A stretch of 22,828 bases of DNA, from NCBI GenBank assembly GCA_003598085.1, contig QZKU01000118.1:1-22828 (forward strand). The letters are read 5' to 3'. Origin of the DNA: Candidatus Abyssobacteria bacterium SURF_5 (GTDB lineage: Bacteria; Abyssobacteria; SURF-5). Below the pieces are notes generated by a model. It had not been told where the DNA came from. It searched no databases and saw only the letters and a program-made list of their open reading frames with translations. Shown piece by piece: positions 1,605 through 8,662 of this stretch (positions within the stretch are counted from its first letter, which is position 1; every line of letters begins with the position of its first letter). The translations under genes were made by a program, and so were the position numbers.

Positions 1605-2345
1605 TTATGCCGTGCGGTTCGCATCATCCTCCTTGTAATTGGCTGCGAGAGCGTCGTGGAGTGCACGAATGTTCTCGATTCCCTCGTTGCCGGCGAGGGT
1701 TTCCACGTTAAAGCCGAGGCAGATGTCGATGTCTTTCTTCGACATGTAGTTGCCGTGGATCAACAGCTCACGGATCTGGTCGATGGCATCGGGGTATTCG
1801 CGTTCTTCGGGGTCATGGCTCTGGAGCAGGAATTCGCGGTAGCAGTGTTCGATGACGCACCTGGAGTGGGTCTGGATTTCGTCCACCGCGCGGAGGACCT
1901 CGCTAATCTTGATATCAAGAGCGTCTTGCGTACTGAAAAAGATATTGCCGTTGGGGTGGGCGGCGTCGTTGCGGTCGGTCACAAGCTTGGCGTACGTACC
2001 GATCTTGCCGTTGTCGCAGGCGATGAGCTTAAGGAAGCGCAGGATGGTCTTTTCGTTGACGGTACTGAAGACGAAGGGCGAGGTGGCTTCAAGTAACGCC
2101 TTCTCGTCTCGCGCGAAACCAATCAGCCCTTTTTCGAAATCCTCAGGTCGTGTTTTCTTGATCTGCCAGATGTTGAAATAGACGAAGCTCATGGTGAGCA
2201 TGTGGTAGGCAAGGAACGCGAACTGGAACTTGCCGTGGGTGTAGTTGCTCTCGAAGGCGTCCCAGAGGAACTTGATGTATTCCTCCTCTTTGGGGCTCTT
2301 GAAGGAGAGCGGCAGGTAATTACCTAGGTCGGCGGCTTCTTCCAT
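1605..2345 (-). CDS. HEPN-motif protein, third gene of the type I R-M operon
   Basis: A 246-residue soluble, mainly helical protein with no family name I can give. The key observation is RNDAAH at residues 125-130, followed by PNG. It matches the R-x4-H signature of HEPN superfamily ribonucleases, including the preferred polar residue after the Arg. In that family the Arg and His form the RNase active site, usually in a dimer. The flanking sequence (about 20-65 and 95-170) reads as amphipathic helices, as a four-helix HEPN bundle would need. The ATG lies 3 bp after the hsdMS stop codon, and its Shine-Dalgarno-like GAGG is inside the end of hsdMS, so translation is probably coupled and the protein made with the methylase. 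By analogy with anticodon nucleases such as PrrC, which sit in type I loci, it may be a back-up RNA-cutting effector. A structural or regulatory role is also possible. Confidence 0.7.
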   Translation of the reverse strand: MEEAADLGNYLPLSFKSPKEEEYIKFLWDAFESNYTHGKFQFAFLAYHMLTMSFVYFNIWQIKKTRPEDFEKGLIGFARDEKALLEATSPFVFSTVNEKTILRFLKLIACDNGKIGTYAKLVTDRNDAAHPNGNIFFSTQDALDIKISEVLRAVDEIQTHSRCVIEHCYREFLLQSHDPEEREYPDAIDQIRELLIHGNYMSKKDIDICLGFNVETLAGNEGIENIRALHDALAANYKEDDANRTA

Positions 2346-2348
2346 TTC

Positions 2349-4865
2349 TCAATCCTCTGCCGGGGCCGGTTCATCTTCGCCCCAGACGCGGGCGAGGGTG
2401 GCCAGGATCTTTTTCTCAAAGCGCGAAATAAGTTCGCGGTTGGCGGCGACCAGCGCCTGTTCGGTTTCGATTTCGGCGACGATGGCTTGTTGGGTGGCGA
2501 GGGGCGGAAGAGGGATTTTATAGTTCTCCACAACTGCTCTTGGAACACGCTGCAATCCTCCGGTTCCCGTCATCTGCGGTGTAGCCCACGCCTGAAATGC
2601 TTGCGTTGCGACACACATAAAAACCCACTCCGGGAGGAGACCATCGGTAGGTCTCAGAACATAGAATTCACTTGAGCCGAAACCGATGCCATTGCGGAGC
2701 CCACGTGCTATGCCGGCCTTTCCGTTTTCAAAACAAGGCGTCACCTTCGCCAGAAGGACATCGCCGTCTTTGAAGTAGGTGTAGCTCGTGGTCACCTCGT
2801 CTAATTGCTTCGTTTCCCTTGGTTCGAAGAACATCTCATGCTCGCCGATGTCTGACATAGGGACGAATGACACGACTGTTGAACCTTCAAGGTCAGCAAC
2901 CTCGGACTTGCGGGGATTCACAATGCAAGCCTCGCCAAGCTCCACCATCGGCCAGTCGGGGTGGATCGGAATGTGGGGGCGGTAGTTGTCTAGGACGGCG
3001 CGGGCGCCGTCAATGACTTTCTGGTAGCCCTCGATCTCCGCCACGATCTCCATCTGTGCCTCCAGCGGTGGCAGGGGAATGGTGATTTCACTGAATTCGA
3101 GACTAATGCCTCCAATGATGCCTTTGATGTACGGCCTGAGTTTGTCTTGAAAGGCACTGGCCCGGACCGCGCAATAAAGGTAGTAGGGATGGATGGATTG
3201 CTTCGCCCGAAGAATGAAGACGTGCTCATTCACGGCAGATGGCATATCATGGGTAAAGAAACCGGTCTTTCCGGTGGTCGCACCATCTTTTACGATGAGC
3301 ACATCGCCTCTTTGAAGAATGCCCTTTTTCATTCCTCGAAAATGATCTTTAGAGATGTACTTCATCTTGTTTAAACGGATGCTTCCTTTTTCGTCAATCT
3401 GTTCCCCACCAATGCTCGGGATGCCTGAGTCAATAGCACCGCCTTTCTGACGCGAGCCGCTTTCAATTACGGCAACCGCCCCAAGTGGAACCATCGGAAA
3501 GTGCGCGGTATCAGCACCATTCTCCCGATACCGTTCTCCGCTGAGGTTGTAGTCGCCATTTGCTGTGACCTTTTCTTTCGGCACGATCAGACCGCAGCTG
3601 ATCTGGACCTCTGCGGTGGGTTTGCGGCTACGGAGGGCCTGGAGACAGGCGACGAGTTCGGCCTGGACCTGCGGGATGTCATTCTTTTCGATGGCGCGGC
3701 GCTGGGCGCCGAGACCGAAGCCATCATTCTCGATCTTGAAGAAGGCGATGGTGTCGCTCTGCCGAGCGAGAGACTTGTCGAGGATGAGGATGGAGGTCTT
3801 CACCCCGGAATAGGGATTGAACACGCCCGCCGGCAGGGAGACGACGGCGACGAGGTAGTTTTCGACGAGCATCTTACGCAGTTCTTTGTAGGCGGTCTGG
3901 CTCTGGAAGATGATGCCCTCGGGTACGATAATGCCGGCGCGGCCGGTAGGGGTAAGGTGCTCCGCCATGTAGTCAACGAACAGGACTTCACTGCGCTTGG
4001 CCCGGATGGAGAAGCGGCGGTGAGGTTTGATGCCGCCTTTCGGCGACATGAAGGGCGGATTGGCGAGGATGACGTCGGCAACCTCGTTCCAGCGCTCCTC
4101 GGAAGTGAGGGTGTCGTATTCGTAGATATGCGGATCAGTGAAACCGTGGAGGTAGAGGTTCACCAGGGAGAGGCGCACCATGTCGGGCGAAATGTCGTAA
4201 CCTTTTATGTTATTGGCGAGGCGGCCGCGATCGTCGGGCGTGAGCTTGCTGTGGCCCTTGTCGTCGGTGTTGGCGCCGAGGATGTGCTTGTAGGCGGATA
4301 TGAGAAATCCGGCGGTGCCGCAGGCAGGGTCGAGAATGACCTCGCCCTTCTGCGGGGCCACGACCTCGACTATGAAGTCAATGATGTGGCGCGGCGTGCG
4401 AAACTGGCCGGCGTCGCCCTGTGAGCCGAGCACCGAAAGCAGATATTCAAAGGCGTCGCCCAAGCGCTCGGAGTGGTCGTACTCGAACTCGTCGATGATC
4501 TTTAGAAACGCCCTGAGCGTCTCGGGGTCGCGGTACGGCAGGTAGGCGTTTTTGAAGATGTCCCGGAAGAGCGGCGGGATGCCGGGATTCTCGGGCATCT
4601 TGGTAATGCCTTCGGCATAGAGGCCAAGCATCGTGTGGCCGCCAAGGCCGGGACTCATCAGCTTCGCCCAGCCGTAGCGGGCGAACTCGCCGGTGAAGAA
4701 CTTCCGCTTACCGCCTAGTTCCTCGGACTCGGCATCCATATCATCCATAAACTTGTAGATCAGCGCGATGGTGATCTGCTCGACCTGGGACTTCGGATCG
4801 GGAAGCTTTCCGACGAGGATGTCGCGGGCGGTGTCGATGCGGCGTTTGGTGTCGTTGTCGAGCAT
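2349..4865 (-). CDS. hsdM: Type I restriction-modification fused methylase-specificity protein (HsdM-HsdS)
   Basis: A single 838-residue chain carries both modification functions of a type I system. Residues 1-430 are HsdM: an N-terminal helical domain, the AdoMet-binding motif DPACGTAGF (179-187), then the catalytic NPPF (269-272) of an N6-adenine methyltransferase. Residues about 455-835 are a complete HsdS. It has a first target recognition domain (to about 600), a conserved helical spacer beginning PLPPLEAQMEIVAEIE, a second recognition domain (about 638-790), and a second spacer helix beginning PLPPLATQQAIVAEIE. Two recognition domains imply a bipartite DNA target. HsdM and HsdS are usually separate proteins; here no stop or frameshift separates them. 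The ATG has AAGGGG five bases upstream, inside the end of hsdR 10 bp away. The protein should methylate host DNA and, with HsdR, form the restriction complex. Confidence 0.93.
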   Translation of the reverse strand: MLDNDTKRRIDTARDILVGKLPDPKSQVEQITIALIYKFMDDMDAESEELGGKRKFFTGEFARYGWAKLMSPGLGGHTMLGLYAEGITKMPENPGIPPLFRDIFKNAYLPYRDPETLRAFLKIIDEFEYDHSERLGDAFEYLLSVLGSQGDAGQFRTPRHIIDFIVEVVAPQKGEVILDPACGTAGFLISAYKHILGANTDDKGHSKLTPDDRGRLANNIKGYDISPDMVRLSLVNLYLHGFTDPHIYEYDTLTSEERWNEVADVILANPPFMSPKGGIKPHRRFSIRAKRSEVLFVDYMAEHLTPTGRAGIIVPEGIIFQSQTAYKELRKMLVENYLVAVVSLPAGVFNPYSGVKTSILILDKSLARQSDTIAFFKIENDGFGLGAQRRAIEKNDIPQVQAELVACLQALRSRKPTAEVQISCGLIVPKEKVTANGDYNLSGERYRENGADTAHFPMVPLGAVAVIESGSRQKGGAIDSGIPSIGGEQIDEKGSIRLNKMKYISKDHFRGMKKGILQRGDVLIVKDGATTGKTGFFTHDMPSAVNEHVFILRAKQSIHPYYLYCAVRASAFQDKLRPYIKGIIGGISLEFSEITIPLPPLEAQMEIVAEIEGYQKVIDGARAVLDNYRPHIPIHPDWPMVELGEACIVNPRKSEVADLEGSTVVSFVPMSDIGEHEMFFEPRETKQLDEVTTSYTYFKDGDVLLAKVTPCFENGKAGIARGLRNGIGFGSSEFYVLRPTDGLLPEWVFMCVATQAFQAWATPQMTGTGGLQRVPRAVVENYKIPLPPLATQQAIVAEIETEQALVAANRELISRFEKKILATLARVWGEDEPAPAED

Positions 4866-4875
4866 GAGATCCCCT

Positions 4876-7416
4876 TCAAGCGGCGAACTGGTTCAAAGAG
4901 ACGTAGTCCTTGATGTATTCAGGGACGAGCGTGCGGTACTTCTTCGGCACGGCTCGGAAGTCCCGTGTCGAGAACACGGGGTTGGTCGCAAGATCAGTGA
5001 ACTGGCGGGTGTCGATGATGTCCCTCACGCGCCCGCTGGTGACGTAAGCCTTGAAGTAGTTCTTGATGGCCGGGATGGCGGTAGCTTCTTCGGGCTTGTA
5101 GTCGGCGACGAACTTGGCGAATTCTTCCTCCAGCAGCTCGTCTTTGGATTTGAAACGCGGAATGAGGCCGAAGATCTTTTCCAGAATCTCACGCAGTGTT
5201 ATGCGGCGGTCCACGGCAGCAGCTTTGCGCAGCTTGTCGAGGGTGTAGTACTCCTCTGGCTTGTCGAAGACCTCGCGGTTCACGTAGTCTATCACGCGAT
5301 CCCACTGTCCGGCCTCGACGGCAGAAGCGACGGTTTCATCGGCGCGGATTGTGTCTTCGAACTTCTCGAAGAACATGCGGTCGATCTTCATTCCCTCGAA
5401 GCCGATAGTCTCTTCGTTGATCATGGAGAGGATGTCGGCGCCCAAGTATTGGTAAGTGCCGCCCACGACCACCGGGCCTTTGCCTCCTCCCTCGCCGGGG
5501 CCCATTCCTTTCGGCCGAGGGAGTTTCAGTACTTCGTCGTAGTTGAACTTCTCCTCGAAGTATTCGCAGTTGGCAAAAAAGTCAAAGAGCTTGAAGGTTT
5601 TCTTCAACGGTTTCTGCACAACGTCCCTGAGGCTGTCATCGAGGAGTTGGTCCAGAAAGTTGTGTGTACGCGTGCCGCGTCCCTTGATCTGGATGAAGTC
5701 TGTGGGTGAAAAGATCGGACGGAAGAGACCGAGGTTCAGGATGTCGGTGCAGTCGTAGCCGGTTGTCATCATGCCGACCGTTACGCAAACCCGGGCTTTG
5801 CTGGTTTTGTAGGCAGGCAAGAAGTTACACGAGCCGAGCAGGTTGTTGTTGCTGAAGTTAACGGTGAATTGTTGGGCATCGGGTATCTGTGAGGTCACCT
5901 GCACGGCGAAGTCAGACTGGTATTTGCCGGGAAACATGCGGTCGGCCATCTCGTTGAGAACCTTTGTCAGTTTGGTAGCGTGGGGCTGGCTGACGGCAAA
6001 GATGATCGACTTGCCGATTTCGCCGCTGACCGGGTCGCGCAGGGCGTTCTCAAGAAACGTCTTGCAGAACAGTTGGTTGGTGGCGTCCGAAAAGAAGCGC
6101 TTTTCGAATTCGCGTTGCTTGAAGGCCTGCTGTTGATCCTCGCCGGTATCGTCCGCGAACGAAACGATGAAGCCCTCTTCTGAAAGAAGTTCGGTTGTGA
6201 TCTCGCTACGGGCGTCCACCACCGTGGGACTGATGAGGTAGCCCTCCTTCACGCCGTCCAGCAAAGAATAGCGGAAGGTGGGTTGGCTGTTCTCGCAGCC
6301 GAAGGTGCGGTAGGTGTCCAGCAGCAAGCGACGCTCGGCCTCGCGCGGGTCGCGGGTGCCCGGATTCGAACTGTCGAATCTGCGGAGGTAGTCGCGTGGA
6401 GTGGCGGTGAGGCCCAGCTTGTAGCCGATGAAGTAGTCGAAGACGGCTCGGGCATTGCCACCGATGGAGCGGTGCGCTTCGTCGGAGATAACGAGATCAA
6501 AGTCAGTCGGCGAGAAAAGCCGTTGGTACTTGTTGTTGAATAGCAGTGACTGCACCGTTGTAACCACAATCTCCGCCCGCTGCCAGTCGTCTCGATTCTC
6601 CTTGTAGATCACCGCCTTGAAATCGGCGGACACCAGCGCGATAAAGGCTTTCCGGGCCTGTTCCTCCAGTTCGAGCCGATCCACCAGGAAGAGGACGCGC
6701 CGTACGTTGCCGGAACGGAGGAAGAGCTTGATTACGGCAGCGGCAGTCAGGGTCTTTCCGGTGCCGGTGGCCATTTCGAACAGGAAGCGGTCCTTGCCTT
6801 CGCCTATTGCGGCCTGAAGGCGATGGATGGCCTTGAGCTGATAGGGCCGGAGAAAGCGAAGTTTGTTGGCCTGGATGTAGCCGGGCCGCTCCGCTTCAAT
6901 CCGCCACCCTGCCTCGGATCGGTAGTTCGGGCGCTGGGTGAGAACGATGTAATCGTCGCCCACTTGCTCCTCCACCAGACGCTGTGGGTTGGGCGTGATC
7001 TTCTGGTAGCCGACGACCGAGTCGGGTGTCGGAAACGAAGTGATGATGTAAGGGTTGCCGCGTTCGAGATCCCAGAAGTAGTGCAGATTGCCGTTGGAGA
7101 GGATGACGAAGCGGCAGTTCTGTGAGCGGGCGTACTTGCGGGCCTGCTCCTTGCCGATCAGCGGATCCTTTTCCTCGGACTTGGCCTCCAGGACGATGAG
7201 CGGGAAGCTTTTGGCGTCGAGCAGCAGGAAGTCGATGAAGCCTTTTTTGGTTTTCTCGAAATTGTTCCCAAGGGCGTCCAGATCGATTGATTTGATGGCG
7301 ACGCCCGGTTCGAGGCGCACGTTGGGGGGCTTGTTCCCCTCCGCAAAGAAACGCCAGCCAGCCGCTTCAAGCAGCTTGTTGATCTTGATTCGAGCTGTGG
7401 CTTCTTTCTTGGGCAC
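4876..7416 (-). CDS. hsdR: Type I restriction enzyme R subunit (HsdR)
   Basis: This is the ATP-dependent translocase and nuclease subunit of the type I system. Its order is the expected one: an N-terminal nuclease domain with Asp62 and the pair Glu77-x-Lys79 (VLEAKS), then a superfamily 2 helicase motor. The motor has Walker A ATGTGKT (216-222), DEAH (312-315), motif III-like TATP (about 337-340) and motif VI QIKGRGTR (576-583). The C-terminal 200 residues form a helical domain of the EcoEI HsdR C-terminal type. At 846 residues it is near the length of EcoEI-like (type IB) subunits. The start is GTG at 7416, preceded directly and in frame by ATG-TAA; no ATG in the first part of the protein is a better choice, and the ribosome binding site is weak. 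It is the first gene of the hsdR-hsdMS-HEPN operon. Confidence 0.95.
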   Translation of the reverse strand: MPKKEATARIKINKLLEAAGWRFFAEGNKPPNVRLEPGVAIKSIDLDALGNNFEKTKKGFIDFLLLDAKSFPLIVLEAKSEEKDPLIGKEQARKYARSQNCRFVILSNGNLHYFWDLERGNPYIITSFPTPDSVVGYQKITPNPQRLVEEQVGDDYIVLTQRPNYRSEAGWRIEAERPGYIQANKLRFLRPYQLKAIHRLQAAIGEGKDRFLFEMATGTGKTLTAAAVIKLFLRSGNVRRVLFLVDRLELEEQARKAFIALVSADFKAVIYKENRDDWQRAEIVVTTVQSLLFNNKYQRLFSPTDFDLVISDEAHRSIGGNARAVFDYFIGYKLGLTATPRDYLRRFDSSNPGTRDPREAERRLLLDTYRTFGCENSQPTFRYSLLDGVKEGYLISPTVVDARSEITTELLSEEGFIVSFADDTGEDQQQAFKQREFEKRFFSDATNQLFCKTFLENALRDPVSGEIGKSIIFAVSQPHATKLTKVLNEMADRMFPGKYQSDFAVQVTSQIPDAQQFTVNFSNNNLLGSCNFLPAYKTSKARVCVTVGMMTTGYDCTDILNLGLFRPIFSPTDFIQIKGRGTRTHNFLDQLLDDSLRDVVQKPLKKTFKLFDFFANCEYFEEKFNYDEVLKLPRPKGMGPGEGGGKGPVVVGGTYQYLGADILSMINEETIGFEGMKIDRMFFEKFEDTIRADETVASAVEAGQWDRVIDYVNREVFDKPEEYYTLDKLRKAAAVDRRITLREILEKIFGLIPRFKSKDELLEEEFAKFVADYKPEEATAIPAIKNYFKAYVTSGRVRDIIDTRQFTDLATNPVFSTRDFRAVPKKYRTLVPEYIKDYVSLNQFAA

Positions 7417-8039
7417 TTACATTTCTCGCTCAGCGATGGTGGTCAGGTGAAGAAGGGGTCGGGCCTACACTTTTGACGAGTCGCCTGCTCTCTCCAGCGA
7501 ATCCAAGCAGTGGACAGCATAAGACTCTGATAATCGGGGACAGCCATTTTGCTGCTTCCTTATCATTTTCCGGTAGGTCGCCCAGTGCGGCAACATCATA
7601 CCACTGAGTGTGAAGAAAATCAATCGGAATGCAGACCACAGGTGACAGTCCACGGTCCACAGGGAATCAAACAAAAAGGCGGAACGAGAAGGATAGTCGG
7701 GAGGGAGGAGTCGGGAGACTGGGGTGAAAATGGGTTCAAGGTCCAATGTTCAAGGTCCAAAGTCGAAAGAAGCTACCTCTGTTTGCTCTGTTTGCTCTGT
7801 TTGCTCCTGTGGATCCTTTCTTGGCGTGTCGGCGTTCAAAGAATTTCTTTGTGCCTTTGTGTCTTGGTGGTTAGATTTCGTCTTTTCTCCGTGCTCCTCA
7901 GTGGCCTCCGTGGTGAATGAACGGTTTCAGGTTTCAAGTTCCAGGTTCCAAGTTGAGCCGAAGCGGCGAGAGCAAGGGAAAATCGAAAGTCGACAACAGA
8001 GAGTAGGAGAAGGTTTCTTCAAGACGCCTGCTCAAATTC
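7417..8039. repeat. Gene-free repeat debris between hsdR and higA
   Basis: About 620 bp without a credible gene; short open frames here are translations of repeats. It contains GGGGTCGGGCCTACAC (starting 7455) and ATCGGGGACAGCCATTTTG (7533-7551), which resemble from memory end sequences seen near REP-associated transposases. It also holds 'ggttcaaggtccaa'-type phrases (7733-7762 and 7923-7954), a 9-bp tandem repeat, and a phrase block at about 7833-7920 (tttgtgcctttgtgtcttgg, ctccgtgctcctcagtgg) of a type scattered through many environmental genomes. No convincing promoter for hsdR was identified in it. Confidence 0.6.
7777..7803. repeat. Tandem repeat, three exact copies of CTCTGTTTG
   Basis: Three perfect head-to-tail 9-bp units are followed by the related CTCCTGTG. 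The phrase CTCTGTTTGCTCCTGTG also occurs at about 9111-9127, so the unit belongs to the dispersed repeats on both sides of the toxin-antitoxin pair. Confidence 0.9.
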
Positions 8040-8315
8040 CTATGCAATTTTCACTTCGAGTTTCTTTCCTAATGCAGAGGCTGTCTTTTTCAGCGTGGAC
8101 AGCTTCACATCTTCCGCATGGTTTTCAATCCGGGAAATTGCGGTTTTCTTGGTCCCGATCCTGCGAGCCAGTTCCTCCTGGGTCAAGCCCGCCGAGACGC
8201 GAGCCTCGCGAAGGATCACGCCAATTTTGAATTGTTCGTACCCCTCTTCGTAACCTTGGGCAAATTCTTTCTCTTTCTTTTTTCTTTTCTTGACGTATTT
8301 ATTGAGATCGCTCAT
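8040..8315 (-). CDS. higA: HigA-type antitoxin, XRE-family helix-turn-helix protein
   Basis: A 91-residue protein with a basic N-terminal stretch (KKRKKKEKE, about residues 9-17) and a XRE/Cro helix-turn-helix at about residues 33-88. The recognition region reads GLTQEELARRIGTKKTAIS, followed by RIENHAEDVKLSTL. Such proteins neutralise the partner toxin by direct binding and repress their own promoter. Its ATG overlaps the toxin stop codon by 4 bp (ATGA), so the two are translationally coupled in toxin-first order, which is typical of higBA loci and the reverse of most toxin-antitoxin operons. It is inferred to bind the inverted repeat upstream of the toxin gene. The symbol rests on family and gene order, not on a database match. 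Confidence 0.88.
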   Translation of the reverse strand: MSDLNKYVKKRKKKEKEFAQGYEEGYEQFKIGVILREARVSAGLTQEELARRIGTKKTAISRIENHAEDVKLSTLKKTASALGKKLEVKIA

Positions 8316-8662
8316 TTCTTTCTCCTTTCGAGGAAGTCCCGCCTCATGGCTTCGGCCTTCCTTATTTCAGATATCGGGGTCACCCGGCTCTTCTTCATGA
8401 ATCCATGAGTCAAAACAACAGTGGCATCGTCAGCAAAGAAGCAGAGAATTCTATATGTGTTCGAGCCAAATGTTATTCGGCACTCCCAGATTTCTTCAGT
8501 TGCGACCAACTTCTTGAAATATATCGATGGAACCCTTTCCAGGTCCTCCACAAGCTTGAGAACCCACGTCACCTTTCTGGCAGCCTTGCCTGGCAAAGAG
8601 TCTAAAAACTTCTCGATGGGACATTTCCCTTCGCCGGTCTTGTAGAACATCACCGTTCTCAT
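8312..8662 (-). CDS. higB: HigB/RelE-type toxin, phage Gp49-like family
   Basis: A 116-residue basic protein of the Gp49-like (HigB) branch of the RelE/ParE superfamily. Supporting features are the N-terminal strand and KTGEGKCPIEKFLDSLP, the central LWECRI-like segment (here EIWECRITFGSNTYRILCF, about residues 57-75), and the C-terminal LTHGFMKKSRVTPISEIRKA, a stretch typical of the family. Members cut mRNA on the ribosome and halt growth until antitoxin is renewed. It is the first gene of a two-gene operon. The start codon lies only nine bases from the operator and has no evident ribosome binding site, so a leaderless message is possible. The pair sits between two repeat-filled intergenic stretches and may stabilise the island. 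Confidence 0.88.
   Translation of the reverse strand: MRTVMFYKTGEGKCPIEKFLDSLPGKAARKVTWVLKLVEDLERVPSIYFKKLVATEEIWECRITFGSNTYRILCFFADDATVVLTHGFMKKSRVTPISEIRKAEAMRRDFLERRKK

Follow-up and report, generated by a model that had tools for sequence, protein, structure and literature searches.

HEPN ribonucleases (RNases) encoded in restriction–modification (R-M) operons were described as second-line effectors in 2013 by Anantharaman et al., who covered at least 16 HEPN clades (PMC3710099). In the type Ic locus EcoprrI, the RNase PrrC stays quiet under the R-M enzyme and is loosed when restriction fails (PMC3710099, PMC3874165). Accessory defence genes inside type I R-M loci have also been described, for example DarTG2 in the RptR island (PMC12255303), and a 2024 preprint by Payne et al. 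is cited for defence genes embedded in such loci (doi 10.1101/2024.01.29.577857).

Here we describe a gene, named C, that closes a type I R-M operon in a 22,828-nucleotide stretch of Candidatus Abyssobacteria bacterium SURF_5 DNA (hereafter, the window). Like PrrC in EcoprrI, C is a predicted HEPN RNase whose gene belongs to a type I R-M operon and for which a second line of defence is proposed (PMC3710099, PMC3874165). Whereas PrrC has an N-terminal ABC-ATPase domain and is found with separate hsdM, hsdS and hsdR genes, C is a stand-alone protein of 246 amino acids with a short helical C-terminal extension, encoded behind an M–S fusion. A first-pass annotation made from the sequence alone had drawn the same distinction between a small stand-alone protein and a large ABC-ATPase fusion, and scans with Pfam, NCBIfam and PADLOC agree with it in detecting no ABC-ATPase domain in C.

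The principle is shared with AbiJ, AbiU2, Abi2/AbiF/AbiD, ApeA and others, which are stand-alone HEPN proteins linked to R-M systems (Anantharaman et al. 2013), but the C family could not be matched to a clade named in the text of that paper and is tied to one lineage of hsdR with fused hsdMS. Compared with known embedded defence genes, the slot for additional genes lies here between hsdMS and a conserved HEPN gene, and C itself has no PADLOC model. Our literature search, with subscription papers and preprints outside its scope, returned no description of the family. Because HEPN RNases in R-M operons and embedded defence genes are both known, we regard the C family as new but its kind as known. 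We propose, with a probability of roughly 58%, that C is an HEPN-family endoribonuclease and a second effector of its type I R-M system, in which M and S are fused, and that it is guarded by the R-M enzyme and released when restriction fails.

The operon and its third gene

The operon and the predicted active site of C occupy the following positions of the window:

4876..7416, minus strand: hsdR, 846 amino acids, GTG start; type I restriction subunit with HSDR_N nuclease and ResIII/SF2 translocase
2349..4865, minus strand: hsdMS, 838 amino acids; N6-adenine methyltransferase fused to a specificity subunit with two target-recognition (TRD) stretches
2343..2351, minus strand: junction of the hsdMS stop and the C start, TGA-GAA-ATG, that is, 3 bp from stop codon to ATG
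1605..2345, minus strand: C, the HEPN-like gene, 246 amino acids; closes the operon downstream of hsdR and hsdMS
1956..1973, minus strand: R125-N126-D-A-A-H130 (RNDAAH), the predicted HEPN active-site motif, residues 125–130 of C

All the parts of a type I R-M system are present in the window, namely an HsdR nuclease with an SF2 motor, HsdM and a two-TRD HsdS, with M and S fused. HsdR matches Pfam HSDR_N (1.7e-6) and ResIII (4.6e-38) and PADLOC REase_I (2.9e-55); HsdMS matches Pfam N6_Mtase (1.9e-49) and, in two stretches, Methylase_S, as well as PADLOC MTase_I (5.1e-94) and Specificity_I (4.8e-63). The spacing between hsdR and hsdMS is 10 bp. Gene coordinates and junction sequence confirm the earlier claim of a third gene 3 bp after hsdMS in the same operon as hsdR, and RNDAAH does lie at residues 125–130 (nucleotides 1973–1956). 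No antitoxin or ATPase regulator was found alongside C, a point against the proposed role.

The minus-strand gene at 136–1095 was rejected as a fourth member of the operon, because none of the C loci examined has a homologue of it; it encodes 319 amino acids without a Pfam family, and a REID...ECK string resembling a PD-(D/E)xK nuclease was noticed by eye. Just before hsdR, at about 7430–7547 (minus strand), a short frame beginning MAVPDYQSLML looks by eye like the start of an Mrr-type protein and is perhaps a remnant. Upstream of the operon, at 8312–8662 (minus strand), lies a Gp49/HigB-like toxin gene (Pfam, 2.2e-17).

Linkage to restriction–modification and optional presence

Scanning 84,980 species genomes recovered 61 loci that encode a relative of C, spread over many phyla by genome titles, several of them metagenome bins for which phylum labels carry a binning risk. 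In 59 of 68 locus rows (one row being a duplicate contig), hsdM/hsdS lies upstream of C on the same strand; the remaining nine comprise contig ends, fragments (for example, L061 and L042) and one locus, L002, that has a slot-type gene in its upstream kilobase. No intact C without hsdMS was found among the loci with enough upstream sequence. The same gene order occurs on a Paracoccus plasmid and on four IMG/VR contigs, two of which are among the 68 rows. The linkage of C to one R-M type, hsdR with fused hsdMS, is near-exclusive, and C has so far been found only with this type.

A homologue that is only about 25–30% identical and keeps R-N-x3-H is encoded on a gut scaffold recorded as phage (L154, MT836552.1). 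It starts 2 bp after a 976-amino-acid fusion of HSDR_N, methylase and specificity parts (R-M-S; L154:3871-6801) that has no SF2 motor match. A scan of viral contigs with the L154 protein gave no further match. The scaffold also carries serine recombinase and RhuM-like genes, the latter named by eye.

The reverse search took HsdR as its start, spanned about 1,600 genomes and counted operons with enough downstream sequence. Only 4 of the 22 related R-MS operons found in this way carry C, and the R-M enzyme therefore does not need it. The methylase tree mixes operons with and without C (14 changes; mean of the shuffles, 15.1), and near-identical operons differ in its presence: L023, with C, and L102, without it, are 94% identical in HsdR and 98% in HsdM, and L049 and L104 form a second such pair (HsdR 95%). 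These three observations together mark C as an optional module. A required subunit of the R-M enzyme is rejected by the close relatives that lack C, and the annotation's description of C as ‘welded’ onto the operon was overstated, as many close R-MS operons do without it.

Where present, C is under purifying selection, with a constraint like that of its R-M partners (median dN/dS 0.153 for C, 0.131 for hsdR and 0.146 for hsdM); in close relatives lacking C, the R-MS operon is intact and equally constrained. Pairwise distances correlate at 0.585 between R and C, 0.613 between M and C and 0.811 between R and M, a correlation that is no proof of contact and may partly reflect shared transfer history.

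The optional, scattered distribution, the L023/L102 pair and the many unrelated defence genes in the slot next to C (below) would all suit a different reading, in which C is an autonomous phage-sensing HEPN toxin or abortive-infection protein that merely rides the promoter and mobility of the R-M operon and is free of R-M control. Such a toxin should also turn up elsewhere, yet every intact C with sufficient upstream sequence sits behind hsdMS; moreover, its distances track those of R and M, and the linkage to R-M persists down to 30% identity. We consider this reading possible, although unlikely.

The slot between hsdMS and C

At many C loci, one to three genes, known or candidate defence genes of many kinds, are fitted precisely into the space between hsdMS and C, with a few bases at the junctions (L005, L009, L010, L011, L015, L020, L023–L026, L030, L045, L054, L057 and L118). 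Among the relatives, the hsdMS/C junction is a 3-bp gap, a 4-bp overlap or an inserted gene. The slot contents at C loci include Mrr-like PDC-S02, AAA_13 ATPases of the PDC-S06/PrrC-RloC kind, SIR2-HerA pairs, DUF4917, AbiC, a DRT UG13b reverse transcriptase, an ABC-3C set and a PHP/ATPase protein, and in operons without C the same position holds FRG, ABC-3C, TrlF and others. On the Escherichia coli IncF plasmids L165 and L166, a close C-less relative of the R-M operon is followed by a gene for a TrlF-family ATPase, and similar matches occur in 52 E. coli plasmid records.

We tested whether C decays when the slot holds another effector, and found this unsupported: C is disrupted at 5 of 19 loci with a slot insert and at 3 of 38 without one (Fisher p = 0.10, not significant). 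A second variable position, between hsdR and hsdMS, was seen at L011, L045, L054, L107 and L115 and at L043, L112 and L118; it holds KilA-N/RhuM-like proteins of 276 amino acids or four-helix-bundle proteins, named by eye.

A broader and rather doubtful reading would take the whole unit as a modular cassette, hsdR-hsdMS-[cargo]-HEPN, in which a DNA-sensing R-M core, a closing HEPN RNase and a slot for interchangeable effectors share one scheme of sensing and translation. Its effectors would be Mrr-like proteins, PrrC/RloC-type ABC ATPases, SIR2-HerA, a defence reverse transcriptase, ABC-3C, AbiC and others.

Active-site motif and predicted fold

The C protein of the window has three R-x4-H strings, starting at residues 125, 162 and 192, and when its residues are shuffled, R[NDH]xxxH turns up by chance in 6% of cases; RNDAAH in one protein, taken alone, is weak evidence and not significant. 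The motif gains significance across the relatives, because all 49 full or near-full family members (the window protein included) have R125, N126 and H130, as does the 25–30% identical L154 homologue. With that homologue added, only 21 columns remain invariant, these three among them. The strings at 162 and 192 are not conserved among relatives. C thus carries the HEPN signature R-x4-6-H with a polar residue after the arginine. Many HEPN families also have an Ex3[KR] motif with a conserved acidic residue; in the C family E81 and E98 are conserved, and neither is at Ex3[KR] spacing with a K or R.

An AlphaFold2 model of the window protein (pLDDT 91.7) has long helices at residues 18–36, 40–65, 112–128 and 140–176, followed by the helical C-terminal extension, and the motif bridges the end of the third of these long helices and the break behind it. 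The predicted four-helix core with the motif at the end of helix 3 is what is expected of HEPN, with modest Z values. In a second-look alignment, the best structural matches in the Protein Data Bank (PDB) were AF0298 (2hsb, Z 8.1), SSO P95883 (2q00, 8.0) and a Thermus HEPN protein (1wwp, 7.3), with further matches to HepT (6.5), Csm6 (6.1) and AbiV (5.8). The model of L049, a 45% identical relative (pLDDT 91.6), matched the sacsin HEPN domain (Z 7.6), AF0298/2hsb (7.6), HepT (6.9), LsoA (6.4) and P95883/2q00 (6.2), with a gap below these matches and unrelated folds from Z 5.1. For both models, the best matches are nearly all HEPN domains.

For helical proteins, Z values of 6–8 are modest, and Foldseek by itself, run with the window protein, returned nothing significant in the PDB (E > 1) or in viral libraries; the fold call therefore rests on the agreement of the two models, the position of the motif and the sequence profile. 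The nearest named HEPN sequence family is RiboL-PSP-HEPN (PF18735), although the window protein matches it at E 0.0071 and 16.7 bits, below the curated cut-off of 28.4, has no L-PSP fusion and lies in a different context. Weak matches to PF18735 were found in 23 of 32 C relatives (best, 4.9e-4), and hhalign of the C family against a profile of PF18735 members gathered in this analysis gave E 7.9e-4 and a probability of 25%, with R-N-x3-H in register (control, E 0.33). No homologue emerged when the PDB was searched by sequence, either with the C protein or with its profile; NCBIfam, PADLOC and PHROGs provided no convincing model for C, and Pfam none above cut-off. Taken together, C is predicted to have an HEPN-like fold. 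The two refutation tests that the first-pass annotation had set for its HEPN assignment both came out in its favour: homologues recur beside hsdM/hsdR with the motif arginine and histidine kept, and HEPN domains are the top matches of the predicted fold.

An HEPN fold need not be catalytic, and non-catalytic HEPN proteins exist (PMC3710099). C might instead be a structural or regulatory R-M accessory, such as an RNA-binding or expression-control subunit, to which its many invariant positions besides R, N and H and the conservation of its C-terminal helical extension (R182, Y200, D205 and C209) would be well suited. However, R-x4-6-H is lost in non-catalytic HEPNs (PMC3710099) and is kept throughout the C family, and the intact, equally constrained operons without C also argue against such a subunit; we judge this improbable. 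The motif might also have arisen by chance in a helical protein of another kind, as its frequency in shuffles, the sub-threshold Pfam match and the Foldseek result could suggest. This reading is largely refuted and very improbable given the family-wide invariance, the HEPN top matches with two models, the HEPN-like location of the motif at the end of a helix and ahead of a break, and the in-register profile alignment.

A proposed guarded RNase as second line of defence

Because the pairing of C with R-M recurs in many phyla with its presumed active site unchanged, we consider C probably a back-up weapon. Metal-independent endoribonuclease activity is a trait of the HEPN superfamily. For C, we infer RNase activity, inhibition by R-M, a trigger and an RNA target as follows. 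C would probably be made in step with hsdMS, given the 3-bp spacing, and would probably be held inactive by the methylase/specificity complex or by the whole restriction complex. If restriction were blocked or overwhelmed, C would cut RNA, most likely host tRNA or mRNA, and the resulting dormancy or cell death would stop phage production. If C is guarded, the M–S part may be a likelier guard than the HsdR motor, because the R-M-S fusion beside the L154 homologue shows no match to an SF2 motor. For a PrrC-like control of C, with silencing by the R-M complex and release by anti-restriction factors, the linkage to R-M is circumstantial evidence. A two-tier defence, with DNA cutting by HsdR and RNA cutting by C, is plausible by analogy with EcoprrI and PrrC.

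C adds a widespread, unannotated HEPN family that has been detected only in R-M operons. The position between hsdMS and C also offers a compact target in searches for new defence genes. The near-identical R-M operons with and without C are natural pairs for testing the PrrC-type ‘guarded RNase’ idea, which thereby becomes approachable in a small protein without an ATPase sensor of its own.
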